From: Clostridia bacterium
GTDB taxonomy: Bacteria > Bacillota > Clostridia > Oscillospirales > Acutalibacteraceae
Length of the DNA stretch: 64,000 nucleotides
Direction: 5' to 3'
NCBI GenBank assembly: GCA_017625095.1
Contig: JAGALQ010000025.1
Coordinates: forward strand, 1-64,000
A program made the translations under genes and the position numbers. The notes under the pieces were generated by a model, which made no database searches, was not told where the DNA came from, and saw only the letters and a program-made list of their open reading frames with translations. Below, piece after piece: positions 19,889 to 61,525 of the stretch. Every line of letters starts with the position of its first letter. The stretch's first letter is position 1.

Positions 19889-19966
19889 AATCGCCATGCG
19901 ATACAGAATCCGCACAAAACGTCATTAAAAACAGCCTTGTGTGCACGGTATCTTTTCCTTTCTTTT
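19889..19966 (-). promoter_or_regulatory. Leader element, copy 1 (possible translational switch)
   Basis: The 88-base gap between subunit E and DUF2764 is filled by a sequence that recurs at 61448-61525. On the minus strand both run AAAGGA(A), GATACCG, a variable loop with T5, GTATCGC-NNN-GCGAT and then the ATG. GATAC pairs with GTATC, and ATCGC pairs with GCGAT; they share the bases ATC and exclude each other. The only Shine-Dalgarno-like AAAGGA is about 65 nt upstream of the start codon. I do not recognise the element. Confidence 0.5.
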
Positions 19967-19976
19967 ATTCTTCACG

Positions 19977-20585
19977 CTATTCAGCCTCTTTCAGAAGTGC
20001 GGTAACCCTGGGACTGAGATAATTTGAAAGCATATCGGTAACAGCCTCAGCCGAATAATCATAATAGACCGCGCCGTTATCGACTGCTATACGGAAGCCG
20101 CCGTCAAAATTATCGTTTGCCTTAAGTGTAACACCGCCCAGCATTTTTGCCTTAAGCTGAGCGAGAACGGCTTCTTCAAGCTTTGCAAGGTCATCGGCGT
20201 TGAGAATAACGGATACATCCTCCGATTCGGGTTTGCCTGTCCAGCTTTCAACGGCACTTACAATAAGCTTTGCAAATGCGTCAGATGAATAAACCGCATT
20301 CACGTTATCGCTTACAATTGCTTTAAGTTCCCTGGTGATGCTCTCTCGGAAAGATATAAGCAGGTTACGACCTGCCTGACGGATTGCATCCTCACCTGAT
20401 CTGACAGTTTTTGCGTTTTCGCTTTTTGCATCAGCCATAATCTTTTCTGCCTGTGCTTTTGCATCGGCGATGATTTTTTCTGCCTCTGCCTTTGCCGAGC
20501 TGATTATTGCTTCAGCCTGAGTTTCAGCGGCGCCTACTCCGTCTTTTCTGATCTGCTCAATCAGTTCCTGAAGTTGAATTTCCAT
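19977..20585 (-). CDS. atpE: V-type ATP synthase subunit E (peripheral stalk)
   Basis: This 202-residue protein has a long Ala/Glu/Lys-rich helix (residues 15-80, heptads such as AEAEKIIADAKAQAEKIM) and a compact C-terminal domain. That is the pattern of the peripheral stalk subunit holding the head to the membrane part. It is the first gene of the operon, with AAAGGAGA before the ATG. No separate G/H stalk partner is seen in the window, so a partner would have to be encoded elsewhere or be absent. Confidence 0.85.
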   Translation of the reverse strand: MEIQLQELIEQIRKDGVGAAETQAEAIISSAKAEAEKIIADAKAQAEKIMADAKSENAKTVRSGEDAIRQAGRNLLISFRESITRELKAIVSDNVNAVYSSDAFAKLIVSAVESWTGKPESEDVSVILNADDLAKLEEAVLAQLKAKMLGGVTLKANDNFDGGFRIAVDNGAVYYDYSAEAVTDMLSNYLSPRVTALLKEAE

Positions 20586-20643
20586 AACGCAGTCTCCTTT
20601 ATAATAACGTTATCATTGTTTGTAAATTGCTGAAAAAGCACAA

Positions 20644-20681
20644 AAAGGAACCAACATCCTCTACAGACAGCTGGTTCCTTT
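20644..20681 (-). promoter_or_regulatory. Leader hairpin, possible attenuator of the V-ATPase operon
   Basis: A 10-bp stem, AAAGGAACCA/TGGTTCCTTT, followed on the minus strand by a T-run and then TGCTTTTTC, lies between the promoter and the first gene. Transcription would begin about 20 bases upstream. It looks like a terminator placed in the 5' leader; no clear antiterminator is seen. Confidence 0.5.
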
Positions 20682-20704
20682 AATTATTATATTTATTTTT
20701 TACG

Positions 20705-20732
20705 ATTATATCACAATCATAATTTTTGTCAA
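20705..20732 (-). promoter_or_regulatory. Strong promoter of the V-ATPase operon
   Basis: The minus strand carries perfect TTGACA (20727-20732) and TATAAT (20705-20710) with a 16-bp spacer. Confidence 0.8.
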
Positions 20733-20800
20733 TAGTTGTTATTTATATATACGCCAAACTATACTTTTACTTTATTTCCGTGCAACTGTATCTGTTAATA

Positions 20801-20829
20801 TTGCTTTAAAAGCTTCTTTGTGGTAAAAT
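20801..20829 (+). promoter_or_regulatory. Promoter of the glycosyltransferase gene
   Basis: TTGCTT (20801-20806), a 17-bp spacer and TAAAAT (20824-20829). Its position rules out the in-frame GTG at 20820 as the start codon. Confidence 0.6.
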
Positions 20830-20855
20830 CAAAAATATTGAAGGAGCGTGAAAAA

Positions 20856-21785
20856 ATGCAGCCGACGGTAAGTATCATTATCCCCGTATACAACATCGAA
20901 AATTATATTGCAAACTGCCTTGAGAGTGTACTTAATCAGAGCTACTCACAGCTCGAAATAATCTGTGTAGACGACGGCAGCAACGATAGCTCGGCTCAGA
21001 TTATACGCAGCTTTGCGAAAAAAGACAGTAGAGTTATTTATGTGCGTCAGGATAACGCAGGCGTTTCCGCTGCCCGAAACAAAGGACTTGACACCGCTAC
21101 GGGTGATTACGTTTTCTTCCTTGACGGTGACGATTATCTGCACAGACAAGCTGTTGAAATACTTGTTGACGGTGCAGTTAAAACAGGCGCACAGATGATC
21201 TGCTCAGATTATACGGTTACAAAATCACTTGACGAAAAGAATGCAGACTATAGTGATTATGATTTTGTGCAGACCGATTTTGAAACACTGTTCACAAAAG
21301 GAAAAACGCTCGGCAAATGCTGCTTTGCAAAGCTTATAAAGAGCGAAATTGCAAAAAAGGTACGTTTCTTTGAGGGTGTAGCTATGGGCGAAGACGGTTG
21401 CTATATCGTACTGATTCTGAACGAAAATGCAAACGTATTTGTCACAGACAAACCGCTTTACTATTATTACGTGCGTCAGGGTTCGGCAACAAAATCCGCA
21501 CTCACCGAAAAGAAGCTGACCATAGTCAACGCTTATGACAGACTTTGCGATATTCTTGCAGATTCACCCAACAAAAATATCAAAGCGTTTGCGTTAAGGG
21601 CAGTTTTCTATCAACTGAACCACAAACGCAGACTGTATAAGGGCACAGCTTACGAATCACTCGCAGAAAAAGTCTGTAAACAAGCGGGCAAAAAGCATCT
21701 TAAAGCATTTATGAAAGAGAAAAACATCAGCCTCACCGTAAGACTGATGCACTTTATAAGATTTAAGCTGAAATTTATAAAGTAA
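20856..21785 (+). CDS. Family 2 glycosyltransferase
   Basis: This is a 309-residue GT-A fold enzyme starting at the ATG at 20856 behind GAAGGAG. TVSIIIPVYNIENYIANCL, CVDDGSNDSS, NAGVSAARNKGL and FLDGDDY (the DxD metal/nucleotide-sugar site, about residue 90) are diagnostic. The C-terminal third is basic and unassigned. It transfers a sugar from a nucleotide donor, probably in surface polysaccharide or teichoic acid decoration. No other capsule genes are adjacent, so the acceptor is unknown. It is transcribed alone. Confidence 0.9.
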   Translation: MQPTVSIIIPVYNIENYIANCLESVLNQSYSQLEIICVDDGSNDSSAQIIRSFAKKDSRVIYVRQDNAGVSAARNKGLDTATGDYVFFLDGDDYLHRQAVEILVDGAVKTGAQMICSDYTVTKSLDEKNADYSDYDFVQTDFETLFTKGKTLGKCCFAKLIKSEIAKKVRFFEGVAMGEDGCYIVLILNENANVFVTDKPLYYYYVRQGSATKSALTEKKLTIVNAYDRLCDILADSPNKNIKAFALRAVFYQLNHKRRLYKGTAYESLAEKVCKQAGKKHLKAFMKEKNISLTVRLMHFIRFKLKFIK

Positions 21786-21810
21786 AACCGAAACAGCATA
21801 TTAAATTTTC

Positions 21811-21848
21811 ACCGCAGGCGATACAACTGTATCAACTGCGGTATTTTT
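21811..21848 (+). terminator. Terminator, ACCGCAG/CTGCGGT family
   Basis: ACCGCAG (21811-21817) pairs with CTGCGGT (21836-21842). An inner GATAC/GTATC stem and a TTTTTT tail are present. Confidence 0.85.
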
Positions 21849-21892
21849 TACGTTCCGACTTTTTATCCGCATAGTGTTTACGCTGTTCTGTC

Positions 21893-21920
21893 TTGACAAA
21901 ATCGGACGCAATTATATAAT
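21893..21920 (+). promoter_or_regulatory. Promoter of the sulfatase operon
   Basis: TTGACA (21893-21898) and TATAAT (21915-21920) with a 16-bp spacer, both perfect. Confidence 0.75.
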
Positions 21921-21953
21921 TAAATCATAATAAGCAGATACGGAGGAACTGCA

Positions 21954-23966
21954 ATGAAAAAAGAAATACATACAGATTCCGGCAAAAAAGTTTTACCCGT
22001 TATTCTTATGGCGGCAGGTGCATTGCTGGCAGTAGCTCTTCTCTTTATCCGTCTCAACATTGTAGCGGTTGTGGCGGTTGCATTCAACTGCATTATGTCG
22101 GCGCTCATCACGCTCAGCCTTATCATCAAAAGAAAAGTTTATACTCCGATGGTGCTCGCCTATGCGCTGTCGGGTCTTGGCGTTATGCTCTACTTTATAA
22201 TTTTCGGAGCGGATGCAGGCTTCGGTGCATTCACATCGGGTCTTGCAGGCTATTCTTCCGCAGAGCATAATCTTTTCACGGGCGAAGGCAACTTCTTTAC
22301 CCGTCTGCTCGGCAATATTCTTCTCGCTTTGCCGTGGATTCTTTCTCTTTTGGGTTTGTTCCTTTTCGCAAAACGCAACTTCAGACGCAGCGGAACAAAA
22401 GCAGCCGTATGCGCACTTATGTGCGTCTGCCTTATGGGCACAAGCGTACTTTACGTGCTGACAATGAATATGCGCTCAAAGCCCAACACAGACAGACTCT
22501 GGGAGGGGCACGACAAGTATCTCAACGGCGTCGACGCAAAGGATGCCGCAGATTCTCCCAACGTGCTTGTTGTTATGATGGACGACCTCGGTTGGGGCGA
22601 CGTATCGCTCAACGGTGCAATCTATGACACACCCAACATCGATTCAATCGGTGAAAACGGACTCAATTTCACAAACTTCTATTCAGCCTATTCCGTCTGC
22701 TCTCCTGCAAGATTTGCCGCACTTACGGGCAGATACCCCTACAGAGGATATGCGGATAACGTTATCTATCCCACCGTTGCAACACTTTCACCGTTTGCAC
22801 AGACAAGAATTTTCAACTCGATTGAAATGGGAAACAATGCCGACGGTATGCTCGGCGATGAAATTACAATCGCAGAAACCTTCAAGGCAGCAGGCTATTC
22901 CACAGGCTGCTTCGGCAAATGGCATCTGGGCGACTACGGCGAATATCTGCCGACAAACCAGGGTTTTGACTATTTCTACGGCAGCCACCACGTAAACGAT
23001 ATGAAGCCTTTCTACCACGTAACGGAAGAAGACGGCGAGTGGCAGATTGTGCACGGCACAGACGAGCTCAAAGACCAGAGTCAGGCAACAAAGTGGATTC
23101 ACGATGAAATCACAGCTTGGATTACAGACAAGGCACAAAACGATGAGCCTTTCTTCGCTTATTACGCTTCTCCCTGGCCGCACGGCCCTGTTTATGCAGG
23201 TGACGATTTTGACGGCACAAGCGGAATGGGTACGTATGTTGACTGCGTAACGGAGTTTGACCATTATCTCGGCATCCTCTTTGCTGAAATGGAAAAGCTC
23301 GGTGTGCTTGACGATACGATAATTGTTTTCACAAGCGATAACGGACCTGCTCTTGAAGGCTCTGTCGGTGACCTTCGCGGCGGCAAATATCTCGCCTATG
23401 AGGGCGGACAGAAGGTGCCGTTTATGATACGCTGGGACAACGACAACGGTGCACTCGGCGAAAAGCAGACCGAAAGAAACAGCAGTGCCGTGCTCGTTGA
23501 CCTTTACCCGACGTTGGTTGAGCTTTGCGACATTACAGGCAACGGCGGACAGAAAAATTATATGCCGACCGACCGTGTTATTGACGGCATATCAATGGCT
23601 CAGCTGATAAAAAGCGACAAGGTTATACACACCGAAGCTCATCCGATTCTTCATATGAAGCGTGAGGTTATAAAGGCCGTTCAGTACGCAGTACCTACAG
23701 CCGAAGTCAAAGCACTCTATCCCGGATATAATTATGATATTCTCAATGACGAATATATTTCATTCAAGTATTTTGAAAAGATACAGAACGACAACTCCGC
23801 TTTCTTTGATAAGAACCGCAAAAACTGGTTGCATATACTCAATGATGACTATGCGGAAAACTATAACCGTACTCCCGTATATCCCGAAATCTCCGACCGG
23901 TTCAGAGAAAAGCTCCACGAAATAACAGACGATTTCAAACACAACAGACGAGGTGTGATTTCATAA
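21954..23966 (+). CDS. Membrane-anchored sulfatase (Cys-type)
   Basis: The 670-residue protein has about five N-terminal membrane helices (residues 12-175) and then an extracytoplasmic alkaline-phosphatase-fold sulfatase domain from about residue 205. VVMMDDLGWGDV supplies metal-binding Asp residues. The signature C-S-P-A-R begins at C249 and is followed by LTGRYPYR. C249 must be oxidised to formylglycine for activity, which fits the maturase encoded two bases downstream. It probably removes sulfate from host mucin or glycosaminoglycan sugars or sulfated steroids; the substrate is not readable. The polytopic N-terminus is less common than a simple signal peptide and resembles lipoteichoic-synthase-like architecture. 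Confidence 0.88.
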   Translation: MKKEIHTDSGKKVLPVILMAAGALLAVALLFIRLNIVAVVAVAFNCIMSALITLSLIIKRKVYTPMVLAYALSGLGVMLYFIIFGADAGFGAFTSGLAGYSSAEHNLFTGEGNFFTRLLGNILLALPWILSLLGLFLFAKRNFRRSGTKAAVCALMCVCLMGTSVLYVLTMNMRSKPNTDRLWEGHDKYLNGVDAKDAADSPNVLVVMMDDLGWGDVSLNGAIYDTPNIDSIGENGLNFTNFYSAYSVCSPARFAALTGRYPYRGYADNVIYPTVATLSPFAQTRIFNSIEMGNNADGMLGDEITIAETFKAAGYSTGCFGKWHLGDYGEYLPTNQGFDYFYGSHHVNDMKPFYHVTEEDGEWQIVHGTDELKDQSQATKWIHDEITAWITDKAQNDEPFFAYYASPWPHGPVYAGDDFDGTSGMGTYVDCVTEFDHYLGILFAEMEKLGVLDDTIIVFTSDNGPALEGSVGDLRGGKYLAYEGGQKVPFMIRWDNDNGALGEKQTERNSSAVLVDLYPTLVELCDITGNGGQKNYMPTDRVIDGISMAQLIKSDKVIHTEAHPILHMKREVIKAVQYAVPTAEVKALYPGYNYDILNDEYISFKYFEKIQNDNSAFFDKNRKNWLHILNDDYAENYNRTPVYPEISDRFREKLHEITDDFKHNRRGVIS

Positions 23967-23967
23967 T

Positions 23968-25059
23968 ATGCCGCCTTTATCGCTGATGATAAAACCTGCT
24001 TCTTCGCTTTGCAATCTCTCGTGTGAATACTGCTTTTACCGTGACGTTTCCGAGCACCGTGAGCACCTCGGCTTCGGTGTTATGAAAAAAGATACGGCAC
24101 GTGAACTTATCGCAAAAGCTCTCTGCTACGCAAACGGCGACAGTGTTGCCTTCGCTTTTCAGGGCGGTGAGCCGACACTTGCGGGGCTTGATTACTTCAG
24201 ATTTTTTGTAAGCACGGTAAATGAGCTTAACCGAAAGAACAGCACGGTTTTTTACAGTATGCAGACCAACGGCACGGTTATTGACGAAACGTGGGCAGAC
24301 TTTTTAAGAGAAAACAAATTCCTTGTAGGTCTGAGCCTTGACGGAGACCACGAAGCAAACAAATTCCGCAAAAAGCCAAGCGGAGAAAACTCGTTTTACA
24401 CGGTGCTGGACACTGCACGGCTTCTGAAAAAGCACGGTGTTGATTTCAATATCCTCACCGTTCTGACAGGCTACTGTGCAGAAAACATTGAACGGATTTA
24501 CCGCTATTTCCGCTTTCAGGGCTTTGGCTATCTTCAGTTTATCCCCTGCCTGCGGCCTTTCGGATCGGCAGAAAAAAGCGAGCTTTATATGACTTCTGAC
24601 CAATATGCCGAATTTCTGATAAAGCTGTTCAATCTTTATGTCAAAGATTATGTCAGACATCAATATGTCAGCATACGTCAGTTTGACAACTGGGTGCGGC
24701 TTTATCTCGGTCAACCAACCGAGCAATGCGGAATTATGGGACACTGCTCTCACCAGTTTGTAAGCGAAGCAAACGGCAACATCTACCCCTGTGATTTTTA
24801 CTGCACGGATGAATACCTGCTGGGCAATATTCTCGACACGGATTTTCTGCAGATGGAGCGCAGCAAAACTGCTGTGAATTTCATCAGAGAAAGCCTTGTA
24901 ATTCCCGAAAGATGTAAAGGCTGCAACCTCTATCCGATCTGCAGAAGCGGCGGCTGCAAGAGGACACAGCTGAGTGAAGACTACTGCAATGCATATAAAA
25001 AATTCTTCACAGCCTGTCTGCCGCTTTTCAGAGTATTTATAAACGAAAAGCCCAATTAA
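23968..25059 (+). CDS. Anaerobic sulfatase-maturating enzyme (radical SAM/SPASM)
   Basis: At 363 residues it has the radical SAM cluster motif C15-x3-C19-x2-C22 (CNLSCEYCFY), the FQGGEPTL SAM-binding stretch and a C-terminal SPASM region with clustered cysteines (CGIMGHCSHQF, CDFYC, CKGCNLYPIC). Family members oxidise the active-site Cys or Ser of sulfatases to formylglycine without oxygen, in the cytoplasm before export. The start ATG lies two bases after the sulfatase stop and the ribosome site GAGGTG is inside that gene. C249 of the neighbouring sulfatase is the evident target. Confidence 0.93.
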   Translation: MPPLSLMIKPASSLCNLSCEYCFYRDVSEHREHLGFGVMKKDTARELIAKALCYANGDSVAFAFQGGEPTLAGLDYFRFFVSTVNELNRKNSTVFYSMQTNGTVIDETWADFLRENKFLVGLSLDGDHEANKFRKKPSGENSFYTVLDTARLLKKHGVDFNILTVLTGYCAENIERIYRYFRFQGFGYLQFIPCLRPFGSAEKSELYMTSDQYAEFLIKLFNLYVKDYVRHQYVSIRQFDNWVRLYLGQPTEQCGIMGHCSHQFVSEANGNIYPCDFYCTDEYLLGNILDTDFLQMERSKTAVNFIRESLVIPERCKGCNLYPICRSGGCKRTQLSEDYCNAYKKFFTACLPLFRVFINEKPN

Positions 25060-25090
25060 CCCTGTGACTTCATATAGGAGGTGAGTGTAC

Positions 25091-25174
25091 GTGAAACTGA
25101 ATGATATCCGACTTATTATCGGCGATATGAAAAATTCATTACACAGCTACACTCCTGTCAAATCACTGCGTTGA
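25091..25174 (+). CDS. Short ORF (27 aa) or 5' remnant of a lost gene
   Basis: A very strong ribosome site, AGGAGGTG, lies seven bases before a GTG that opens a 27-codon frame. The product has four Lys, two Arg, no Cys, and an amphipathic first half (NDIRLIIGDMKNSL). It lies 31 bases after the maturase and before the ABC exporter. ABC exporters in Clostridia often come as pairs, so this could be the leftover start of a deleted partner; or it is a true small peptide. The rest of the 25060-25302 gap shows no other gene. Confidence 0.4.
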   Translation: MKLNDIRLIIGDMKNSLHSYTPVKSLR

Positions 25175-25302
25175 TATTTTTAAAACGGATTTGATGTAAA
25201 ATCCAGAGATACCCGATAACCGTTCTGCTTTTAATGCTTAACAAATTGAAAGCGGATAGGTTTTTTGCGCAAAAAATTCATTTTAAAAATAACGGTGATT
25301 AT

Positions 25303-27087
25303 ATGAAGAACAAAAAATTATCAAAGATAAAATATATTCTGTTTCTCCTCAAACCTTACTGGAATTACGGAAAAGGTTACATACTGACAGTTGCGCTGAT
25401 GTCCCTGGTGCTTCAGCCTCTGTCCGCTTATCTTACGGCGCTTTTACCGCAAAAGGCAATAGATGCCGTAATAAATGATACACCTCAGAAAGAGGTTATC
25501 GGCTTAATCATAATGTTCACGCTGTTCATTGTTCTGGTTTCTGCATTGGAAAAAGTTATTCAGATGTCATATACCCAAATGACACTTGTAAAGGTAAGCA
25601 ACAAAATCAAAAACGATGTCAACAAGAAAGCATTGGACACGGATTTCAAGTATTACGATAAGCCTGATTTTTTTGTGAAGTTTATTTTCGCACAGGATAG
25701 TTATCCTGCTCACGCTCAGAATGTTGTGATGTTTTTTCCTGATATACTCAGAGGCATTGCAACAATGGTTGCTATGGTTACGATTATCGCTTCCACAGGC
25801 CCTGTCCTGCTCGGAATCACAGCGTTTTTTGTTATCCTCAATGCGGTTGTCGGTATCCCGGCGGTAAAGCCCACTGCGGACTACGAAATGAATCTCGCCG
25901 ATGCCTGGCGGCCAATGGAATATTCGAGCCGTGTACTCAAAACCAAAGAAAACGCAGCTGAACTTCGTGCATCCGGTGCCGGCATAAAGTTGCTCAACTC
26001 AGTCAATGCGGCAATGAACAATTTCCAAGCGGTTTACAGACAGTTCATACGCAAGGTTGCACCCTTTCACCTATTGCAGGGTGCTGTTGCTCCGATACAG
26101 GCGGCGTGTATACTTGCATATATAATTTTCTTTGTTATTGCAGGTGACAAATCACAAATCGGGTTATATGCATCACTCACCGTTGCCTCAACAGCATTGG
26201 CTTCAAGCCTTAACGATGTAGCAGGCAGTATTATGCAAATGCTTCAGTGTATTGCAAACGGTGAAAAGGTTGCGGAGTTTTTTGAAGCCGAATCAGTTAT
26301 TGAGCCACACAATATCAACGCAATCCCTGCCCCTGACGGCAATTATGAAATTGAATTTAATGATGTATCTTTCGGATATGACGACTGCTCACCGCTGTTT
26401 GAAAATTTCAGTCTTCATATAAAGCCCGGAGAAAGGGTGGCGATTGTCGGAGAAAACGGTGCAGGCAAAACAACTCTGACAAAATTGCTGCTGCGCTTAT
26501 ACGATGTCAACAGCGGTGCGATACTTATCAACGGCAAAAACATAAAAGATTATGACGTGCATCAGTTAAGGCTGAATATAGGCACGGTGTTTCAGGATGT
26601 CCGTGTGCCGGCAATGAGCCTGCGTGATAATCTGTGCGTGTATAACGATGTGCCCGATGATAAGCTGCGTGAAACGTTGGACAAAATCAACTTGACGGAT
26701 GTGCTCAGAAAAGCAAACGGAAATTTGGACACGATGGTTTCCCGTGAGTTTACGGAAGACGGAATTGCTCTCTCAGGAGGAGAAGCACAAAAGCTGATGC
26801 TCGCAAGACTTTTCACAAAGCCGTTCGGTCTTTTGATTCTTGATGAACCCTCGTCTGCGCTTGACCCTTTGTCCGAAGTAAAGTTAATGCAGAATATTCT
26901 TGATATATCAAACTCTGCCACAACGGTTATGATTGCCCACCGTCTTTCAACTGTGCGTGATTTTGATTGTATTTATCATATTGAAAACGGCAGAATTATC
27001 GAAAGCGGATCGCACGATGAGCTTATGGCCCTCAAAGGCAAATATTATCAGATGTTCGTCAGCCAAGGTGAAAACTATCGCAATTAA
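25303..27087 (+). CDS. ABC exporter, fused membrane and ATPase domains
   Basis: I start at the ATG at 25303 (AACGGTGAT upstream); an in-frame ATG at 25234 lacks a ribosome site. The 594-residue product has a six-helix exporter domain (about 1-330) and a nucleotide-binding domain: Walker A GENGAGKTT (about 383-391), Q-loop FQDV, signature LSGGEAQK, Walker B LLILDEPSSALD (about 511) and H-loop AHRLS. One polypeptide has one ATPase, so it works as a dimer. The substrate is unknown: drug, peptide or lipid are all possible. No partner half-transporter is intact nearby, though the 27-codon ORF upstream may be a trace of one. Confidence 0.88.
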   Translation: MKNKKLSKIKYILFLLKPYWNYGKGYILTVALMSLVLQPLSAYLTALLPQKAIDAVINDTPQKEVIGLIIMFTLFIVLVSALEKVIQMSYTQMTLVKVSNKIKNDVNKKALDTDFKYYDKPDFFVKFIFAQDSYPAHAQNVVMFFPDILRGIATMVAMVTIIASTGPVLLGITAFFVILNAVVGIPAVKPTADYEMNLADAWRPMEYSSRVLKTKENAAELRASGAGIKLLNSVNAAMNNFQAVYRQFIRKVAPFHLLQGAVAPIQAACILAYIIFFVIAGDKSQIGLYASLTVASTALASSLNDVAGSIMQMLQCIANGEKVAEFFEAESVIEPHNINAIPAPDGNYEIEFNDVSFGYDDCSPLFENFSLHIKPGERVAIVGENGAGKTTLTKLLLRLYDVNSGAILINGKNIKDYDVHQLRLNIGTVFQDVRVPAMSLRDNLCVYNDVPDDKLRETLDKINLTDVLRKANGNLDTMVSREFTEDGIALSGGEAQKLMLARLFTKPFGLLILDEPSSALDPLSEVKLMQNILDISNSATTVMIAHRLSTVRDFDCIYHIENGRIIESGSHDELMALKGKYYQMFVSQGENYRN

Positions 27088-27114
27088 AACAGTTTAATAT
27101 CAGACACTTATAAG

Positions 27115-27158: not shown

Positions 27159-27230
27159 TCAGTTGAAAGATTGATGCAAAGCATACGTACAAAAAGCTTT
27201 ATTTTCGGCTGTATGAAAAATACTATACTC

Positions 27231-37730: not shown

Positions 37731-37817
37731 TGGCGGAGAGTTAGGGATTCGAACCCTAGAGGCTTTTGGCCTACAGCATTTCGAGTGCTGCACCTTCGAC
37801 CACTCGGACAACTCTCC
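37731..37817 (-). tRNA. tRNA-Ser (anticodon CGA)
   Basis: On the minus strand the sequence from 37817 folds as an 87-nt class II tRNA. The acceptor GGAGAGT pairs with ACTCTCC, with discriminator G and an encoded CCA. The anticodon loop is CT-CGA-AA on a GCAGCA/TGCTGT stem. A long variable arm and the T-arm GGGTTCGAATCCC are also present. It reads UCG codons. A perfect -35 and a near -10 lie upstream and a terminator lies directly downstream. Its 3' end is the sequence shared with repeats B and C. Confidence 0.95.
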
Positions 37818-54410: not shown

Positions 54411-54449
54411 AAATCTGACTCCTTGTAGAGAAAACTTTTATATAAATAT

Positions 54450-54480
54450 ATTATACATTTAATAACCTATGCTTTGTCAA
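54450..54480 (-). promoter_or_regulatory. Likely promoter of the cytidylate-kinase-like gene
   Basis: TTGACA (54475-54480) and TATAAT (54450-54455) on the minus strand, separated by a long 19-bp spacer. No convincing plus-strand promoter for the allose operon is seen in 54481-54562. Confidence 0.5.
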
Positions 54481-54562
54481 GCAAAATATCAAATTTTCCG
54501 AATCATAAACCAACAAACTCCGTACATACTAAATCAAAGCGAAAAAACGAAGGTGTGATCGG

Positions 54563-56098
54563 ATGCAGCCTCTTGTAATAATGAAAGATGTCAAAAAACA
54601 GTTTCCCGGTGTTACGGCACTTGACGGAATATCCTTTGATATTATGCCCGGCGAAGTTCACGTTTTGCTAGGCGAAAACGGTGCAGGCAAATCCACACTG
54701 ATGAAAATTCTCAGCGGTGTGCATAAACCTACCGACGGGCAGATAATAATCGGCGGCTCTGAGTTTACCGCGCTTACTCCCAAGGATTCACGAAGCTGCG
54801 GCATAAGCGTAATTTATCAGGAGCTGAGCGTGATAAACGAGCTTTCCATTCAGGAGAATCTCTTCGTCGGTAATCTGCCTGTAAAAAATATAGGACCCAT
54901 GAAAATTGTTGACTACAAAAAAATGAGAGAAGCAACGCAGATGCTTCTTGGCAAAGTGGGTCTGCGCAAAGACCCCGAAACCGCTGTTGAGGAGCTGAGC
55001 ATATCGGAAAAGCAGCAGGTTGAAATTGCCAAAGCACTTGCCGCTGACAGCAGAATACTGATTATGGACGAGCCGACAACCTCACTCACCTCAAGCGAAG
55101 TCAGTCACCTTTTTGCCGTTATAAGAGAGCTGAAAAAAGAGGGGCACGGAATTGTCTTTATCTCGCATAAGCTCGGCGAAATAATGGAAATCGGCGACAG
55201 AGTAACCGTGCTGAAAGACGGCAGATACGTCGGCACAAAAAAGATAAGCGACGTAACACAGGATGACCTCGTGACAATGATGGTAGGCAGACAGATAAGC
55301 AAAAACTATCAGCACCCTTCGGCAGATTACAGTGACGCACCAGTCATATTCGAGGTGCGCAACCTGTCCAGAAAAGACGGCAAGGTAAAAAACGTGTCTT
55401 TTAAATTAAGGCGCGGTGAAATCCTCGGCTTTTCGGGTCTTGTCGGTTCAGGCAGAAGCGAAATGATGAACTCCATCTTCGGTGCAGAGCCGAAAGCCTG
55501 CGGCGAGATTCTGATTGACGGCAAAGAGGTACGCACGTCTGCTCCGTTTTATTCGATAAAAAGCGGACTTGCAATGGTGACGGAAAACAGACGAGAAACA
55601 GGCTTTTTCCATAACTTCAGCATAAAGAAAAACATTTCTGTTCTGCCATTTATAAAGCAGTCATCCTTTGCAGGCATAACAGGCCTTGTAAGCGACAAAA
55701 ACGAAGATATATGGGCTGATGAACAAAAAAAGAACCTCAACATCAAATGCTACTCGACCGAGCAGGGAATAACCGAGCTTTCGGGCGGCAACCAGCAAAA
55801 GGTAATACTCGGCAAATGGCTTGCCGCAGATTCGCAGATAATAATTTTCGACGAGCCGACGAAGGGCATTGACGTAGGCTCAAAGGGCGAGATATATGCG
55901 CTTATGCGAAGGCTTGCGGATGAGGGCAAGGGCATACTTGTTGTCAGCTCTGAGCTTCCCGAGCTGCTCGCCGTCTGCGACACGATTGCCGTATTCCGCG
56001 AGGGTGAGATTGTTGCCGTTTTTCCTCACAAAGAGGCAACCGAAGAAAAAATAATCGCTGCTTCAACAGCAGAAAAAGGAGAGGGAAACAGACCTTGA
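54563..56098 (+). CDS. alsA: D-allose ABC transporter ATP-binding protein
   Basis: This 511-residue protein has two nucleotide-binding domains in tandem, as in all monosaccharide (RbsA/AlsA/MglA) importers. The first has Walker A GENGAGKST (about 36-44), ELSISEKQQVEIAKAL and ILIMDEPTTSL. The second has the degenerate GLVGSGRSE (about 291), ELSGGNQQKVILGKWL and IIIFDEPTKGID. It powers import with the permease and binding protein of the same operon. The sugar is inferred as D-allose from the downstream AlsE- and AlsK-like enzymes. GAAGGTG precedes the ATG. Confidence 0.9.
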   Translation: MQPLVIMKDVKKQFPGVTALDGISFDIMPGEVHVLLGENGAGKSTLMKILSGVHKPTDGQIIIGGSEFTALTPKDSRSCGISVIYQELSVINELSIQENLFVGNLPVKNIGPMKIVDYKKMREATQMLLGKVGLRKDPETAVEELSISEKQQVEIAKALAADSRILIMDEPTTSLTSSEVSHLFAVIRELKKEGHGIVFISHKLGEIMEIGDRVTVLKDGRYVGTKKISDVTQDDLVTMMVGRQISKNYQHPSADYSDAPVIFEVRNLSRKDGKVKNVSFKLRRGEILGFSGLVGSGRSEMMNSIFGAEPKACGEILIDGKEVRTSAPFYSIKSGLAMVTENRRETGFFHNFSIKKNISVLPFIKQSSFAGITGLVSDKNEDIWADEQKKNLNIKCYSTEQGITELSGGNQQKVILGKWLAADSQIIIFDEPTKGIDVGSKGEIYALMRRLADEGKGILVVSSELPELLAVCDTIAVFREGEIVAVFPHKEATEEKIIAASTAEKGEGNRP

Positions 56099-57063
56099 AC
56101 GCAAATAACAAAATCGGCAACAGCACGTTTGCCTTTAAAACCGCCTGGCAGCGCTACGGCACGCTCGGCATTCTGATACTGCTGCTCACCATTCTTGCAG
56201 CACTCAAACCCGGCTACTTTTTTCAGCCGTCAACCGTAACACAGATTCTGTCGCAGAGCTCGGTCAACATTCTCATAGCTCTCGGCGAATTCTTCGCAAT
56301 ACTGATTGCCGGCATAGATCTTTCCGTCGGCTCGGTAACAGCTCTTTCGGGTATGGTTACGGCAAAGCTGATGGTGGCAGGCATCGCTCCCCTGCCTGCT
56401 GTTATTCTCGGCATACTTCTCGGCGCAATTTTAGGCTTTATTAACGGCATTCTGGTCAACGGCACAGGTTTACACCCATTCATCATCACACTCGGCACGC
56501 AGGCAATATTCCGCGGAATAACGCTGATTATTTCCGACTCAAGCGCAATATTCGGCTTTCCCGCATCGTTCACAACGTTTATGGCGAAGCGGTTTATATA
56601 TATCCCCGTATCGGCTTTTATCGCGCTTGTTGCCGCACTTGTGCTTGCCTTCCTCACAAACAAAACAAAGCTCGGCAGAAATATCTATGCTCTTGGCGGC
56701 AATAAGGAAAGCGCGTGGTATTCGGGCATAAACGTAAAACTTCACACGCTTATCGTTTTTATTATTTCGGGCATCTGTGCAGGCATTGCAGGTGCTGTGC
56801 TGCTCGGACGTGTCGGCTCCGCAGAGCCTGCAGCGGCAACGGGATTTGAAACCTATGCAATTGCCGCGGCAATTATCGGCGGCACGAGCTTTTTCGGAGG
56901 AAAGGGTAAAATTTTCGGCGTTGTGATGGGCGGTCTGATTATCGGTGTTATCAACTTCGGTATGAATCTGCTCTCTGTTTCAAGCACCCTTCAGCAGGTT
57001 GTTATGGGCGCGCTTATCATAGGCTCTGTCACACTTGACCGCTTCGTCGCCGGCAACAAATAA
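56095..57063 (+). CDS. alsC: D-allose ABC transporter permease
   Basis: This 322-residue membrane protein of the RbsC/AlsC family has about 8-10 hydrophobic segments and the conserved LIAGIDLSVGSVTALSGM, NGTGLHPFIITLGT, YALGGNKESAWYSGINV and GGTSFFGGKGKIFGVVMGG. The start is TTG at 56095, overlapping the alsA stop (TTGA), with AAAGGAGAG a little far upstream. It forms the membrane pore as a dimer. Confidence 0.9.
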   Translation: MNANNKIGNSTFAFKTAWQRYGTLGILILLLTILAALKPGYFFQPSTVTQILSQSSVNILIALGEFFAILIAGIDLSVGSVTALSGMVTAKLMVAGIAPLPAVILGILLGAILGFINGILVNGTGLHPFIITLGTQAIFRGITLIISDSSAIFGFPASFTTFMAKRFIYIPVSAFIALVAALVLAFLTNKTKLGRNIYALGGNKESAWYSGINVKLHTLIVFIISGICAGIAGAVLLGRVGSAEPAAATGFETYAIAAAIIGGTSFFGGKGKIFGVVMGGLIIGVINFGMNLLSVSSTLQQVVMGALIIGSVTLDRFVAGNK

Positions 57064-57075
57064 GGAGAATTAATT

Positions 57076-57756
57076 ATGAGTATAATGTTCAGCCCCTCAC
57101 TGATGTGTATGGATTTTCTTAACATCTCAGCGCAGATAGATGTGTTAAACACACGGTGCGATTATTACCACGTTGATATTATGGACGGCCACTATGTGCC
57201 GAATCTTGCGCTCTCACCCGATTTTGTCAGAGCAATAAGTCCTGCGGCAAAGCAGCCGATTGATTGCCACCTGATGGTGACCGACCCGTCACGCTATATC
57301 GCGCCGCTTAAAGCTGCAGGCGCACAGATGATATGTCCGCAGGTTGAAACAATAACCGCTGACGCTTTCCGCACCATAAACACAATAAAGCAGACAGGCT
57401 ACAAGGCAGGTGCGGTTTTTAACCCTGCAACTCCGATTTCAGTCGCACAGTATTATCTGCATCTGCTCGACAAAATCACAATTATGACGGTTGATCCCGG
57501 CTTTGCAGGACAGCCGTTCATACGCGAAATGCTGGCTAAGATTGAGCAGGCACGCTCACTTAAAGAAAAGCACGGCTATCACTATGTCATCGAGGTTGAC
57601 GGTGCGTGCAACAAGAGCACATTCAAGGACCTGTACAGTGCAGGCGCAGAATGTCTCGTTGTAGGCTCATCGGGTCTTTTTGACCTTGACGGCAACCTTG
57701 AGAGAGCGTGGGATATTATGACAGAGGATTTCAGAAAGGCTACGGAGGGATGTTGA
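57076..57756 (+). CDS. alsE: D-allulose-6-phosphate 3-epimerase
   Basis: This is a 226-residue TIM-barrel epimerase of the ribulose-phosphate 3-epimerase family. FSPSLMCMDFLN, YYHVDIMDGHYVPNLALSPDFV, DCHLMVTDPSRYI, ITIMTVDPGFAGQPFI and IEVDGACN closely follow E. coli AlsE (which begins KISPSLMCMDLLK) rather than Rpe. It converts D-allulose 6-phosphate to D-fructose 6-phosphate. Metal and catalytic residues (the Asp of VDIMDG, the His of CHLMV, the Asp of EVDGA) are present. AAGGAG precedes the ATG; the next gene starts immediately after the stop. Confidence 0.92.
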   Translation: MSIMFSPSLMCMDFLNISAQIDVLNTRCDYYHVDIMDGHYVPNLALSPDFVRAISPAAKQPIDCHLMVTDPSRYIAPLKAAGAQMICPQVETITADAFRTINTIKQTGYKAGAVFNPATPISVAQYYLHLLDKITIMTVDPGFAGQPFIREMLAKIEQARSLKEKHGYHYVIEVDGACNKSTFKDLYSAGAECLVVGSSGLFDLDGNLERAWDIMTEDFRKATEGC

Positions 57757-58686
57757 TTGAGCGACATATTTGCGCTTGGAATTGATATAGGCGGCACCAA
57801 CTTCCGTATGGGAGTTGTCGGCGGTGACGGAAAAATACACTCGTTCACACGCACACCGAGCAACGTTTTTTCTGACGGCAACGCAGAGGAAATACTTCTG
57901 CGCGAAATAAAGGTTTATCTAAAGCAAAGCGGATTTGAAGGCAGAATCAAGGCTGCCGCCGCAGGTATCCCCGCAACAGTAAGCAAGGATAAAAAAACCG
58001 TGCTCTCCTCCCCTAACCTGAAAGCTTTTGACGGTGTGACAATTTCTCAGGACTTTGAAACGGCGCTCGGTTTTTCATTCTATATCGACAGAGATGTAAA
58101 CTTTCTTCTTCAGAACGATATTGCAAAGCTCGGGCTTTCAGGTGAAAAAACAGTGCTCGGTTTTTATATCGGCACGGGATTCGGAAACGCGATATCATTC
58201 GGCGGCAAGGTATATTCCGGATGTAACGGCACTGCAGGCGAGCTCGGTCACGTGCCGATACTCGGCAGCACCGATGTGTGCACCTGCGGCAACGTAGGCT
58301 GTATCGAAACACGCTGCTCGGGCAAGGCACTTGAAGAGCTTGCGGCAAAGCATTTTCCGACTGACGATATAAAAAAGATTTTCACACTGCACGGTGACAG
58401 CGAAATCATAAGAGAATTCATCAAGGATCTTTCAATACCAATCTCCACGGAAATTAATATTTTAGATCCCGATTGCTGCGTCATAGGCGGCGGTGTGGTC
58501 GACATGTGCGATTTCCCGAAGGAACTTCTTATGGATGCAATAAGAATGCGTGTGCGAAAGCCGTATCCCGAACAAACATTCAACGTGATTTTCACAAAGC
58601 ACGACCAGCAGAGCGGTGTTTTCGGAAGCGGTGATTTTGCACTCAACGAATATCTGAGCCAAATTGGGAATAATATAACAAACTGA
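57757..58686 (+). CDS. alsK: D-allose kinase (ROK family)
   Basis: This 309-residue kinase starts at a TTG directly after the alsE stop (ribosome site inside alsE, GGAGGG). ROK features: GIDIGGTNFRMGVV phosphate-binding loop, IDRDVNFLLQNDIA catalytic region, GTGFGNAISFGG, GELGHVPI and the zinc-binding CTCGNVGCIETRCSG. The C-terminal GGGVVDMCDFPKELLMDAIRMRVRKPYP follows the allose kinase pattern. It makes D-allose 6-phosphate from imported allose and ATP. Confidence 0.9.
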   Translation: MSDIFALGIDIGGTNFRMGVVGGDGKIHSFTRTPSNVFSDGNAEEILLREIKVYLKQSGFEGRIKAAAAGIPATVSKDKKTVLSSPNLKAFDGVTISQDFETALGFSFYIDRDVNFLLQNDIAKLGLSGEKTVLGFYIGTGFGNAISFGGKVYSGCNGTAGELGHVPILGSTDVCTCGNVGCIETRCSGKALEELAAKHFPTDDIKKIFTLHGDSEIIREFIKDLSIPISTEINILDPDCCVIGGGVVDMCDFPKELLMDAIRMRVRKPYPEQTFNVIFTKHDQQSGVFGSGDFALNEYLSQIGNNITN

Positions 58687-58703
58687 TGAAAAGAGGTAAA
58701 AAT

Positions 58704-59708
58704 ATGAAAGCAAGAAAAATTATTGCAGCTGTGCTGGCTGTTACATTATTAGGCTGTATACTGACCGCATGCGGCAACAATACAGATGAAAACTCACCTG
58801 TACCCGATGTGACAAACTCCGCTGCAAACAACACGGATTATGCCATTATCCTCAAAACACTTTCAAACGATTTCTGGGCAAAGATGAAAACAGGCATTGA
58901 AGAAGAGGCAAAAAAGCTCGGCGTTAAGGTGGATATTTTCGCCGCACAGAATGAAGAAGATACGGCAGGTCAGCTGACAATTCTCGAAAACTGCCTTGCG
59001 AAAAATTACAAGGCAATCGGTGTTGCTCCGCTTTCACCGACTAACCTTATCAACGGCATTGTACAGGCAAACGAAAACGGAATTTACGTGATGAACATTG
59101 ATGAAAAAATCGATATTGATTCACTTCGCAACGCAGGCGGAAGCGTTATTGCGTTTGCAACAACTGATAACGAAGCCGTAGGCAAAAAGGGCGCAGAATT
59201 TATTATCAATAAGCTCGGTGAGAGCGGCGGTGAGGTTGCAATAATCGAAGGTAAGGCAGGTAACGCGTCGGGCGAATCGAGAAAAACAGGCGCAACAAAA
59301 GCATTCGAGGATGCTGACGACATCGAGCTTGTTGCCTCACAGCCTGCTGACTGGGACAGACAGAAAGCGCTCGACACCGCAACGGGCTATTTGCAGATGT
59401 ATCCTCAATTAAAAGCAATCTACTGCTGTAACGACACAATGGCGCTCGGTGCACTGCAGGCGGTTATCAACGCAGGCAAGCTCGGCAAAATTATCATCGT
59501 CGGCACAGACGGCTCAGCTGAAGCACTTGAATCAGTCAAGGCAGGTCAGCTTGACGCAACCGTTGCGCAGGACCCTGCTGAAATCGGCGCGGCATCACTG
59601 AGAAAAATGGTTGACGCAGTAACCAACAAGCCGAAAATCGACCCGAACACAGCGCCGCAGACAATACCCGTAGACTCTTATATCGTAACAAAGGAAAACG
59701 TAAAATGA
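58704..59708 (+). CDS. alsB: D-allose-binding lipoprotein
   Basis: The ATG at 58704 is preceded by AAAGAGGT and gives 334 residues; an in-frame ATG six codons earlier overlaps the alsK stop. The lipobox LTAC places the lipidated Cys at residue 23. The mature part is a periplasmic-binding-protein (type I) fold: YAIILKTLSNDFWAKMKTGIEEEAKKLGV, CLAKNYKAIGVAPLSPTNL, EGKAGNASGESRKTGATKAF, YCCNDTMALGALQAV. It captures the sugar outside the cell for alsA/alsC. It is placed late in the operon, unlike the usual binding-protein-first order. Confidence 0.9.
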   Translation: MKARKIIAAVLAVTLLGCILTACGNNTDENSPVPDVTNSAANNTDYAIILKTLSNDFWAKMKTGIEEEAKKLGVKVDIFAAQNEEDTAGQLTILENCLAKNYKAIGVAPLSPTNLINGIVQANENGIYVMNIDEKIDIDSLRNAGGSVIAFATTDNEAVGKKGAEFIINKLGESGGEVAIIEGKAGNASGESRKTGATKAFEDADDIELVASQPADWDRQKALDTATGYLQMYPQLKAIYCCNDTMALGALQAVINAGKLGKIIIVGTDGSAEALESVKAGQLDATVAQDPAEIGAASLRKMVDAVTNKPKIDPNTAPQTIPVDSYIVTKENVK

Positions 59709-60133
59709 GTCTGATTGCAATAGGCTGTGACCACGTTGGATTTGAGCTGAAAATCCGAATCATCGACCACCTTCAGAGTCAGGGACACAGCATAAAGGAT
59801 TTCGGAACACACAGCACAGAGAGAACGGATTATCCGATTTTCGGCAAAGCCGTTGCCAACGCCGTAGCAAGCCGCGAATGCGATAAAGGCATTTTAATCT
59901 GCGGCACGGGTGTCGGCATTTCCATTGCGGCAAATAAGGTGCACGGCATCCGTGCGGTTGTGTGCAGCGAGCCGTATTCCGCCCTGCTTTCAAGGCAGCA
60001 CAATGACACAAATATACTTGCATTCGGTTCAAGAGTTGTCGGCGCTGACCTTGCGGTGATGATTGTTGATGCGTGGCTCAGCGGTGAATTTGAAGGCGGC
60101 AGACACAAAAACAGAGTTGATAATATAGAATAA
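59705..60133 (+). CDS. rpiB: RpiB/AlsI-type sugar phosphate isomerase
   Basis: This 142-residue enzyme of the RpiB/LacAB family has AIGCDHVGFELK at the N-terminus, ERTDYPIFG, GILICGTGVGISIAANKVHGIRAVVC (Cys base in the ICGTG loop) and SRQHNDTNILAFGSRVVG. In E. coli the same enzyme serves ribose 5-phosphate and allose 6-phosphate. Its place here completes the path allose to allose-6-P (AlsK) to allulose-6-P (this) to fructose-6-P (AlsE). It overlaps the alsB stop by four bases (ATGA). A terminator-like palindrome cluster follows. Confidence 0.92.
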   Translation: MSLIAIGCDHVGFELKIRIIDHLQSQGHSIKDFGTHSTERTDYPIFGKAVANAVASRECDKGILICGTGVGISIAANKVHGIRAVVCSEPYSALLSRQHNDTNILAFGSRVVGADLAVMIVDAWLSGEFEGGRHKNRVDNIE

Positions 60134-60262
60134 GATTCTTCGCTATCGCTCGGAATGACAATTAAATTGATTTTTATAAAAAACGGGAGACCACACAGGG
60201 TCTCCCCTACGCGTGAAAATATTAAGCAGCATCGTAAGGGAGAAATTTTGCCTCCCACTATA
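60134..60262. repeat. Dispersed palindromic repeats after the allose operon
   Basis: GATTCTTCGCTATCGCTCGG (from 60133) leads into ATTAAA. Then GGGAGACC-acaca-GGGTCTCCC lies around 60185-60208 and a further GGGAG...CTCCC pair at about 60230-60256. These resemble repeat families scattered through gut Clostridia genomes and are not terminators by themselves, as no T-run follows. The remaining part, up to 60427, holds the terminator at 60287 and no gene. Confidence 0.5.
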
Positions 60263-60286
60263 AACCATAATATACCACAACAAAAA

Positions 60287-60326
60287 AACTCCGCTTACTG
60301 ATTGGTAAACGGAGTTCTGATTTTTT
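60287..60326. terminator. Bidirectional terminator between rpiB and the SDR gene
   Basis: AACTCCG (60287-60293) pairs with CGGAGTT (60310-60316). TTTTTT lies downstream on the plus strand and TTTTTTTG on the minus strand. Confidence 0.75.
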
Positions 60327-60427
60327 ATGCAGTTGATTTCGGGGGCAGCGACATTCACTGTCCTCGGTGCCGCACATCCTCTCTGTATCTCAACTTAATT
60401 GAGGTATCGGATGCAACGTCACGTTGC

Positions 60428-61447
60428 TTATTCGCCCTTCATTTCAAGGAGCTTGACCTTACCGTCGTAAGAAGCCTGGCTGACCTTGATTGAATCGAAG
60501 ATAGCAGCTCTGATATCGTCTTCTGTTGCACCAAGCTCTACCGAATACTTGCGATCAATGAAGAGATCGATATCCATAATGTCAGCAAGTCCGTCAACAT
60601 CAATACCGCTTTCGATGCCCTTTTCGGCATATTCCTTCTTGACACCACCAAGACCCATACGCATCATCCAGGGAGCGACGCTGATAATCTTACGGTTGTC
60701 GCCCATACCTCTTGCGGCATAAACGATCTTGAGGAATTCCTTCCAAGTCTGGTTGTACATGCTGATGGGCCATGCCTTTGCGCCCTTTGACTTCTCAGCT
60801 GCACCGACAATAACCTCACCAACCTGACGGACTGTAAGCATAGCTGTACCGCCGCCGGGATACATTGTGAAGGGAAGCTTATCCATTCTCTTGATCTGCT
60901 CGATAAGAATAACCCAGACGGGCTTTCTGCCGGGCTGTGTGCCGAAAATGTAGGGAAGCTCAAGAACAGCTACATCAAAATTCTCGTCAGCATAGGAGAA
61001 TGCAACCTCTTCCTGGTCGATTCTGCTGCGAATGTAGGGATGCTTCTCTGTGAGCTTCATATCGGGACGCTCTTTTGCAAGGTATGCAAAGTAAGAGCCG
61101 AGGATAACGGCATTCTTCATACCGACTTCCTTACAGATAGGAAGAAGTCTCTTGAGAGGAGCGATGTTGCACTTGTAGTAAAGATCATAAACAGGAGCGG
61201 GAGCTTCAACTCTTTCGTCAACGCCTGCAGCGAAAACGAAACAGTCGCAGCCTGTCATCATCTCTTTGATTTCCTCGTCGCTCTTTTCATAGAGATTGCA
61301 AAGCTCGATTTCCATCTCTTCGGGGATGGGAGCACCTTCGGGAAGAGGAGGCAGAGCAACGCTCTTGACCTGATGTCCTCTTTCGATGAAAATTCTTGCA
61401 GCCTCACAGCCGAGAAGGCCTGTGCCGCCAATCATAAATACTTTCAT
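60428..61447 (-). CDS. NAD-dependent epimerase/dehydratase-family (extended SDR) protein
   Basis: This 339-residue Rossmann-fold protein has the N-terminal MIGGTGLLGCEAARIFIERGH cofactor loop, FVFAAGVDER and a YIRSRIDQEE region where the usual YxxxK is not evident. LELPYIFGTQPGRKPVW and MYPGGGTAMLTVRQVG follow the extended SDR/NmrA-like plan. Loss of the canonical Tyr-Lys pair may mean altered catalysis or a binding role. The start codon is at the end of a leader element shared with the DUF2764 gene. It lies downstream of the SCP2-like and transketolase genes on the same strand. The substrate is unknown. Confidence 0.82.
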   Translation of the reverse strand: MKVFMIGGTGLLGCEAARIFIERGHQVKSVALPPLPEGAPIPEEMEIELCNLYEKSDEEIKEMMTGCDCFVFAAGVDERVEAPAPVYDLYYKCNIAPLKRLLPICKEVGMKNAVILGSYFAYLAKERPDMKLTEKHPYIRSRIDQEEVAFSYADENFDVAVLELPYIFGTQPGRKPVWVILIEQIKRMDKLPFTMYPGGGTAMLTVRQVGEVIVGAAEKSKGAKAWPISMYNQTWKEFLKIVYAARGMGDNRKIISVAPWMMRMGLGGVKKEYAEKGIESGIDVDGLADIMDIDLFIDRKYSVELGATEDDIRAAIFDSIKVSQASYDGKVKLLEMKGE

Positions 61448-61525
61448 ATCGCAGTGCGATACACGGTACGCACCAAAAGTTGATATAAAAACAACGCTTA
61501 GTGCCCGGTATCTCTTCCTTTCTTC
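61448..61525 (-). promoter_or_regulatory. Leader element, copy 2 (possible translational switch)
   Basis: This copy is homologous to 19889-19966. The GATAC (61508-61512)/GTATC (61458-61462) helix and the ATCGC-act-GCGAT hairpin directly before the ATG are both kept, and they again share bases. The AAAGGAAG-like ribosome site is about 65 nt from the start codon. Confidence 0.5.

Follow-up and report, generated by a model that had tools for sequence, protein, structure and literature searches.

A probable mobile element that inserts at start codons, with a proposed hairpin-bridged ribosome-binding site, in a family of Clostridia

Introduction

In the leaders of the bacteriophage T4 genes 38 and 25, a hairpin between the Shine-Dalgarno (SD) sequence and the AUG shortens the spacing from 22 to 5 nt and from 27 to 11 nt, respectively, and mutations weakening the structure lower initiation, according to an excerpt of PMC3014915. 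A split ribosome-binding site is likewise described for E. coli thrS in an excerpt of PMC3936740. Here we describe a short repeated element, two copies of which (A and B) lie in a 64,000-nt stretch of the Clostridia bacterium assembly GCA_017625095.1 (contig JAGALQ010000025.1, positions 1 to 64,000; hereafter the window). As far as the excerpts describe them, the T4 and thrS sites share a principle with the element, an RNA hairpin that shortens an overlong SD-AUG spacing: in the element, the linear distance is too long, and the helix between SD and AUG is kept by compensatory change. By sequence, the bridged spacing would be 12-14 nt; that of T4 gene 25 is 11 nt (PMC3014915). However, the excerpted sites are single-gene leaders, whereas the element is a repeated, probably mobile unit in front of unrelated genes and has a longer loop-out.

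Being short, non-coding, highly base-paired, dispersed and probably non-autonomous, the element also resembles miniature inverted-repeat transposable elements (MITEs). Unlike these, it shows no clear target duplication, and the one copy examined for a terminal inverted repeat lacks it; the element therefore falls outside the MITE description in the excerpt of PMC3049150. MITEs are normally intergenic, as excerpted from PMC10969869, whereas the element occurs in one orientation and at one place relative to genes. The Rickettsia palindromic elements of the same excerpt are likewise small repeats in many unrelated genes, but these create in-frame fusions to open reading frames (ORFs), whereas the element lies ahead of the start codon, where it alters the ribosome-binding site. 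The TAACTGA repeats of Beggiatoaceae also lie mostly no more than several nucleotides from start codons, without a pattern of downstream functions and in some cases at essential genes; they are, however, heptamer direct repeats proposed as regulator binding sites, and the excerpt of PMC4679880 describes neither a bridging hairpin nor empty-site evidence. No description of an element of this kind was found in titles and abstracts of the open-licence literature, a scope with subscription journals mostly outside it. To our knowledge, it would be the first case of a mobile element directed to the space that separates an SD from its start codon.

The element is ~86-92 nt long and has the consensus AGYGTGAAAAAT-CAGAAAGGAGG-[P1/P2 hairpin]-CATGGCGATT, where P1 is the outer helix and P2 the inner stem. 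The explanation that we consider most probable, and by a good measure of confidence, is that of a mobile element which targets start codons and replaces the ribosome-binding site of the gene with its own, hairpin-bridged one. It would insert in sense orientation between the SD and the start codon of the target gene, usually exactly 3 nt before the ATG, and would bring its own ribosome-binding site in the form of an SD abutting the long hairpin. Closure of P1 would then move the internal SD from ~70 nt to ~12-14 nt before the native ATG. A further hairpin at the start codon, P3, shares a strand with P1 and competes with it.

Results

Covariance models and copies analysed

Two covariance models were used, both containing P1 and the SD; P3 is not part of the model. 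R1 was trained on copies A, B and C, the latter located elsewhere in the same genome (G000), and R2 on 31 copies, including 11 from genome G007 and 4 from G097. Within G000, R1 matched A, B and C at E values of 1e-22 to 4e-19 and the next sequence at E 1.6; the likeness of the three copies is far beyond chance. R2 yielded 110 matches in 10 chosen genomes (E <= 0.05), 56 of them in G007 and 28 in G097, so that most matches in these two genomes were not training sequences. The 157 R2 hits referred to below are those in the loci examined, not all 110 hits from the 10 genomes, and the tests on 141 copies comprise the hits of at least 33 bits, excluding 16 below this score.

Placement at start codons

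Placement of the element at start codons is evident from the sequences. A long ORF starting at -10 to +25 after the element followed 143 of the 157 hits, 100 of these with an ATG exactly 3 nt past the element end (+3). Among the 141 copies, an ATG occurred exactly at +3 in 94 and within -1 to +6 in 126, as compared to 0.49% and 3.7% of the random positions (28,200 positions in the same loci, which contain the target genes). The best-scoring set had +3 in 25 of the 32 copies with a long ORF. Six copies in G097 that are 97-100% identical all lie exactly at +3, each preceded by a native SD-like run, by eye. That these near-identical young copies are all found at +3 favours targeting over selection for the 3-nt distance, which would then be fixed by the insertion machinery and not just by selection. 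A long ORF is missing after nine of the 141 copies: one at a contig end (L072), two that are internal to the L093 tandem array, five whose frame is short or broken although a start codon is close by (L167, L084, L131, L183, L214), and L176, which also lacks an ATG at +3.

The downstream N-termini were different in 153 of 153 cases. Of 20 chosen downstream proteins, all except that of L116 had a Pfam match, among them GrpE, DnaG, alanine racemase, D-Ala ligase, phosphoglycerate mutase, transketolase, RecR, ParA-like, RimM, gyrase/topo IV A, TruA-like (twice), undecaprenyl diphosphate synthase-like and RsmF-like proteins, the acetolactate synthase small subunit and YhbY. As the downstream genes are unrelated, a regulon is unlikely; together with the missing covariation of P3 over all copies (see below), this led us to reject a regulon or riboswitch.

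Two loci contain tandem copies: three head-to-tail units, repeating every ~90 nt, precede a single transporter-like gene (L093, G007:C122:17531-17787), and two units lie on G130:C2 (L188). Because the units resemble each other, tandem duplication and repeated insertion are equally likely at these loci.

Filled and empty sites

DUF2764, the target gene of copy A, was present in five of ten congeners searched, with an empty site in all five. The empty site reads ..AAAGAGGCTGAATAATT/ATGGC in G003, G004 and G010 (just before the ATG: GAATAATT; slashes mark the sites of division), with the one-base variants TAAT in G005 and TAACT in G002, and the filled site of G000 reads ..AAAGAGGCTGAATA[GCGTGAAG...CGCATGGCG]ATT/ATGGCTGAA. 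The ATT closing copy A (19891-19889) equals the native pre-ATG bases of three congeners. In addition, 16 element-bearing G007 genes were compared with five congeners, which allowed inspection of 14 (none for L136 and L153). In alr, GTTT/CTG/ATG of the congener corresponds to CTTT[element]CTG/ATG in G007, and in tkt, GGTGAAT/AGA/ATG corresponds to ..AAT[element]AGA/ATG; orthologues of the G007 grpE and dnaG genes are also without the element. Wherever the flanks align, the three pre-ATG bases are native, e.g., CTG in alr and AGA in tkt. A search with R2 of 61 orthologue loci, including the five DUF2764 loci and 14 relatives of YhbY, whose gene carries a young copy in G097, gave nothing below E 0.2. 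At the level of sequence, such pairs of sites make the insertion evident.

The tkt leaders of G001, G006, G009 and G010 (loci L263, L265, L258 and L266), which lack the G007 copy, have an SD-hairpin-ATG arrangement of their own; in G009, R2 scores at most 14.3 bits (E 0.23) immediately ahead of the tkt ATG. These arrangements may be eroded remnants of earlier copies at this position, in which case a new copy would have been inserted in G007, or they may have no relation to the element. Copies were also observed before a TruA-like gene in both G319 (L197) and G337 (L207), and before a gene that is dehydrogenase-like by its N-terminus in both G097 (L173) and G130 (L186). The same kind of gene being filled in two genomes reflects either an old shared insertion or repeated targeting.

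No terminal inverted repeat was found in the young copy L094, in which 4 of 20 end bases match and the best 15-mer near the ends matches at 7 of 15. Among 35 young copies, at the best of 64 boundary shifts, flanks of 2 nt were identical in 12, those of 3 nt in 6, those of 4 nt in 2, and those of 5 and 6 nt in none. The aligned empty sites (DUF2764 and the G007 genes) show no target duplication; by flanks alone, a duplication of 2-3 nt is possible. A Y1 transposase, which as a RAYT would be the mover if the element were of the REP type, was found in 12 of 20 genomes, including G000, G319, G276 and G097, and none in G130 (99% complete), G007 (77% complete) and G024.

P1 covaries across the family

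P1 comprises 7 bp in most copies and 5 bp in the three copies of G000, and occurs in the forms GCGATTC/GAATCGC, GCGATAC/GTATCGC, GCGATCC/GGATCGC, GCGGTTC/GAACCGC, GCAATAC/GTATTGC and others. Covariation was evaluated in a sequence-only alignment against 2000 shuffles, with 106 distinct rows for P1 and 97 for P3; for P3, rows whose tail differed in length were excluded, and for the same reason energies were compared in 132 copies. P1 cells were paired in 93.1% compared with 86.0 +/- 0.7 in the shuffles, and double changes numbered 53 compared with 18.2 +/- 3.3; no shuffle reached either value, and P1 exceeded every shuffle also on score. As R2 itself rewards P1, the test was repeated on the 83 copies of at least 60 bits, a score at which this reward hardly decides the inclusion of a copy. 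Here, 95.2% of cells were paired versus 90.3%, with 16 double changes versus 3.9, and at 70 bits or more 96.8% versus 94.1%, with 6 versus 1.4 (0 of 2000 shuffles in each case). The covariation of P1 is thus evident in the alignment, and all seven pairs can be drawn in 96 of the 141 copies.

For P3, in contrast, 89.1% of cells were paired over all copies versus 89.0% in shuffles (962 of 2000 reach this value), with 4 double changes versus 3.0 (710 of 2000). Below 60 bits P3 fell short of the shuffles (1817 and 1775 of 2000 reach it), and at 70 bits or more there was a weak hint: of 2000 shuffles, 127 reach the paired cells and 84 the 2 double changes. All five P3 pairs can be drawn in 92 of 132 copies. 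Among nearest-neighbour changes, 30 were compensatory, 81 one-sided and 58 unpaired in P1, as compared to 2, 53 and 58 in P3. P3 was the less stable predicted state in 113 of 132 copies. Predicted energies of P1/P3 were -19.3/-19.3 for A, -16.1/-16.2 for C and -22.8/-23.6 for B, and a local two-state equilibrium is possible for these copies. In L140, L178 and L137 the strand common to both helices has changed, leaving P1 fully paired and P3 not.

The inner hairpin P2 had a mean z of -2.5 against mononucleotide shuffles, with z below 0 in 99%. P2 may be reduced to very few bases without loss of the other parts, as in L320, where P2 is gone and P1 closes a 4-nt loop, with SD, P1 and ATG all kept.

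The internal SD is retained and the native SD becomes rarer

The element SD is AAAGGA(GG), and 134 of the 141 copies have 0-2 nt between its core and P1. An internal SD at or below -5 kcal/mol was present in 98% of the 141 copies (100% of the highest score class and 96% of the next), a value that is partly ascertained, as R2 contains SD and P1 and copies having lost them are under-found. The native upstream SD was found in 69% of copies of at least 85 bits, 29% of those at 60-85 bits and 33% of those below 60 bits, with 19% at random, indicating its loss from many diverged copies; by reading of the flanks, the SD-like run of the congeners is gone in the filled genes at L145, L098, L134 and L135. 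An SD adjoins the native ATG in 5% of copies. The native start codon itself is retained in 130 of 132 copies. As the native SD is rarer in older copies and the internal SD occurs in 98%, the latter seems to be under selection after insertion, and the ribosome presumably uses the bridged SD.

The linear distance from SD to ATG is 67-68 nt in A and B and ~70 nt in the family. By sequence, closure of P1 reduces it to 13 nt in B, 14 nt in A and 12-14 nt overall, with ~12 nt between the P1/P2 hairpin and the native ATG; in copy A, 53 nt from P1 start to P1 end are looped out.

An ATG in the loop, as in copy A, where the P3 loop triplet is an in-frame ATG, occurred in 30/35, 34/48 and 30/58 copies from the highest to the lowest score class. 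It is disfavoured as the main start, as it gets rarer with divergence while the native start stays. The frame-0 excess was also present in copies without a loop start (31/39) and therefore reflects the fixed 3-nt distance. Among the 35 highest-scoring copies, 25 have an 11-codon ORF from the left end of the element (GTG AAA AAT CAG AAA GGA GGC GCG ATT CGG GCA TAA). A conserved upstream ORF is rejected as a general feature, since 26 of the 58 most diverged copies are without a start codon there.

Distribution of the element

R1 matched 7 of 97 genomes, and R2, at E <= 0.001, matched 19 in a sample of 300 from the family, both counting G000; in the latter search, 14 matches were in G130. Among 394 genomes sampled from the order, five had matches (E <= 1e-4), all five from the same family. 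The searches of 300 and 394 genomes used stricter filters, which lose weak matches. A strict pattern search of named genomes gave 23 stretches, the named carriers being metagenome-assembled genomes (MAGs) of Clostridia, including RUG14170, RGIG2633 (goat omasum), RGIG3744 (goat rumen) and RUI225. A match in a Hyphomicrobiaceae MAG (L059), from another phylum, seems to fit the pattern by chance and was not regarded as a copy, and viral contigs gave no exact match to one strict pattern. No Rfam family matched the element at gathering score, and none up to E 0.5 matched the young copy L094.

Of 20 regions with partial and weak hits, 16 were copy-like by eye, mostly diverged and before a start codon, and four did not look like copies (L308, L309, L313, L316). 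The hits L110, L112, L086 and the second hit in L111 also look unrelated to the element.

Copies A and B and their surroundings

Both copies in the window were confirmed and lie on the minus strand (Table 1). Copy A reads AAGAAAGGAAAAGATACC...GTATCGCATGGCGATT, followed by the DUF2764 ATG at 19888-19886, and copy B reads AAGAAAGGAAGAGATACC...GTATCGCACTGCGAT, followed by the SDR/epimerase ATG at 61447-61445. The initial annotation had described a ~78-nt sequence ending twice at the ATG of unrelated genes (DUF2764 and SDR), and both copies are indeed present. Its helices GATAC/GTATC and ATCGC-NNN-GCGAT with their common ATC are found in A and B as described; the inner hairpin P2 inside the first helix had been overlooked. 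The AAAGGA named there as the only SD-like run nearby is so in both copies, 67-68 nt before the ATG (given as ~65 nt).

Table 1. Coordinates of the element copies and associated features. Positions refer to the whole 64,000-nt window unless a contig label is given.
Feature	Position	Strand	Remarks
Copy A	19889..19977	-	between V-ATPase E-like gene end and DUF2764 start codon; R1 and R2 matches
Copy A internal SD AAAGGA	19956..19961	-	sequence
Copy A P1 5' strand GATAC	19948..19952	-	covariation in family
Copy A P1 3' strand GTATC	19900..19904	-	covariation in family
Copy A P3 ATCGC-ATG-GCGAT, competing hairpin	19890..19902	-	pairing without covariation support over all copies
Native ATG of DUF2764	19886..19888	-	aligned with ATG of five congeners
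DUF2764 gene, V-ATPase operon, target of copy A	19331..19888	-	Pfam PF10962, E 2.8e-9
V-ATPase E-subunit-like gene, upstream of copy A	19977..20585	-	PF01991, E 1.5e-4, under curated cut-off
Copy B	61448..61525	-	before SDR/epimerase gene; R1 and R2 matches; left end provisional
Copy B internal SD AAAGGA	61516..61521	-	sequence
Copy B P1 5' strand GATAC	61508..61512	-	family covariation
Copy B P1 3' strand GTATC	61458..61462	-	family covariation
Copy B P3 ATCGC-ACT-GCGAT, competing hairpin	61448..61460	-	sequence
SDR/epimerase gene, target of copy B	60428..61447	-	Pfam PF01370, E 9e-9
Copy C	G000:C17:28383-28457		outside the window; before putative Fe-S/F420-hydrogenase-like gene

The stop codon of the V-ATPase E-like gene is TAG in G000 and TAA in congeners, as copy A begins within this stop codon. 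The site of copy B is also occupied in G002 and, in diverged form, in G003. In the latter (L319), SD, an extended P1 (GATACAT/ATGTATC) and a short P2 are all kept; the start codon now overlaps the former P3 3' strand, and P3 can still be drawn with four pairs. By eye, a TATAAT at 61542-61547 (minus strand), immediately upstream of copy B, and beside it a hairpin with a T run at ~61556-61590 were noticed; copy B may be close to where its mRNA begins, whereas copy A is internal to an operon. The surroundings of copy B gave weak Rfam matches to unrelated families, all below gathering score. The sole Rfam match at gathering score in the window is a tRNA gene at 37734-37817 (minus strand).

Discussion

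The initial annotation had considered a translational switch between mutually exclusive helices, a structure-bridged ribosome site and a dispersed repeat. In a two-state switch, closed P1 would be the on state and the start-codon hairpin P3 the off state, under control of a ligand, a protein or temperature. Both helices can be drawn in most copies, their energies differ little or not at all in A, B and C, P3 shows its weak hint of covariation at 70 bits or more, and there are single compensatory cases (GTCGC/GCGAC in L090 and, by reading, G-C to A-T in the G003 orthologue of B). Mutual exclusion is thus a fair description of the copies seen at first, but across the family a switch is unsupported: P3 covaries no more than shuffles over all copies and less below 60 bits, its compensatory nearest-neighbour changes are 2 versus 30 in P1, it is mostly the less stable state, and three copies keep P1 and not P3. 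There is also no common theme among the downstream genes, and we regard a switch as unlikely. Leader-peptide control, by which the native SD would drive a short upstream ORF and reinitiation or coupling would translate the gene, is suggested by the 11-codon ORF, whose start codon is by eye at the proper distance from the native SD. However, its start codon is missing from many of the most diverged copies and its length is not kept, the ORF being GTG AAA ATT TAG in L104, and the native SD that would drive it gets rarer, making this explanation quite improbable. A group II intron and an attC site were among the other identities considered.

A plain dispersed repeat, at start codons by chance or tolerance and without a role in translation, would agree with the random downstream genes, the patchy spread and the recent near-identical copies. 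Position and orientation are far from random, though, and P1 covariation and the internal SD are retained through divergence, so that such a repeat is highly improbable as the whole explanation. The element is indeed dispersed, but this holds alongside the structure-bridged ribosome site, not instead of it. The latter is backed by the covariation of P1, the internal SD kept while the native SD becomes rarer, and placement in sense orientation at start codons. The checks proposed at the outset, a covariance-model search of relatives and an inspection of start-codon placement, gave covariation for the first helix and not for the second, with copies at start codons in sense orientation; copies in random orientation away from start codons, which had been named as refuting, are not what is seen.

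Several observations weigh against a mobile element that supplies a bridged ribosome-binding site. The usual SD spacing is 5-9 nt, and the bridged spacing is longer. The number of pair types in P1 was reached by 61 of 2000 shuffles, and within lineages the signal of P1 is weaker, with 97 (G007), 202 (G097) and 82 (G130+G319+G337) of 5000 shuffles reaching it; as this excess is modest, relatedness inflates the pooled test. In G000 itself, the 5-bp P1 is no more stable than P3. Among the 143 hits with a long ORF, 43 do not have an ATG at +3 (15 at 0, 9 at 2, 5 at 4, the rest elsewhere or with another start codon). A native SD-like run persists in about a third of the older copies, and the retention of the internal SD is subject to the ascertainment mentioned above. 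No mobilising enzyme was found in a search for the Y1 family only, and no longer, gene-bearing (autonomous) version was seen among the partial and weak hits and by BLAST of three genomes.

A bolder proposal, to which we give less than even credence, is that translation start sites as such are the target: the insertion machinery would read the initiation region, and a 'stealth' element would thereby rewire initiation genome-wide. Start sites might be read via the mRNA and the ribosome at initiation, a DNA copy being made afterwards, or an SD-ATG pair might be recognised directly. The target gene would be kept alive, as a complete bridged ribosome-binding site would be supplied 3 nt before its start codon.

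The bridged sites that we found in print are single-gene leaders, whereas here more than a hundred natural replicates are available, some with empty-site controls. With so many cases of a hairpin-bridged site replacing an ordinary one, the rules of bridged initiation become directly testable. If the proposed mechanism is true, the working SD of these genes would lie ~70 nt upstream, and gene finders that expect a near SD may misplace their starts.

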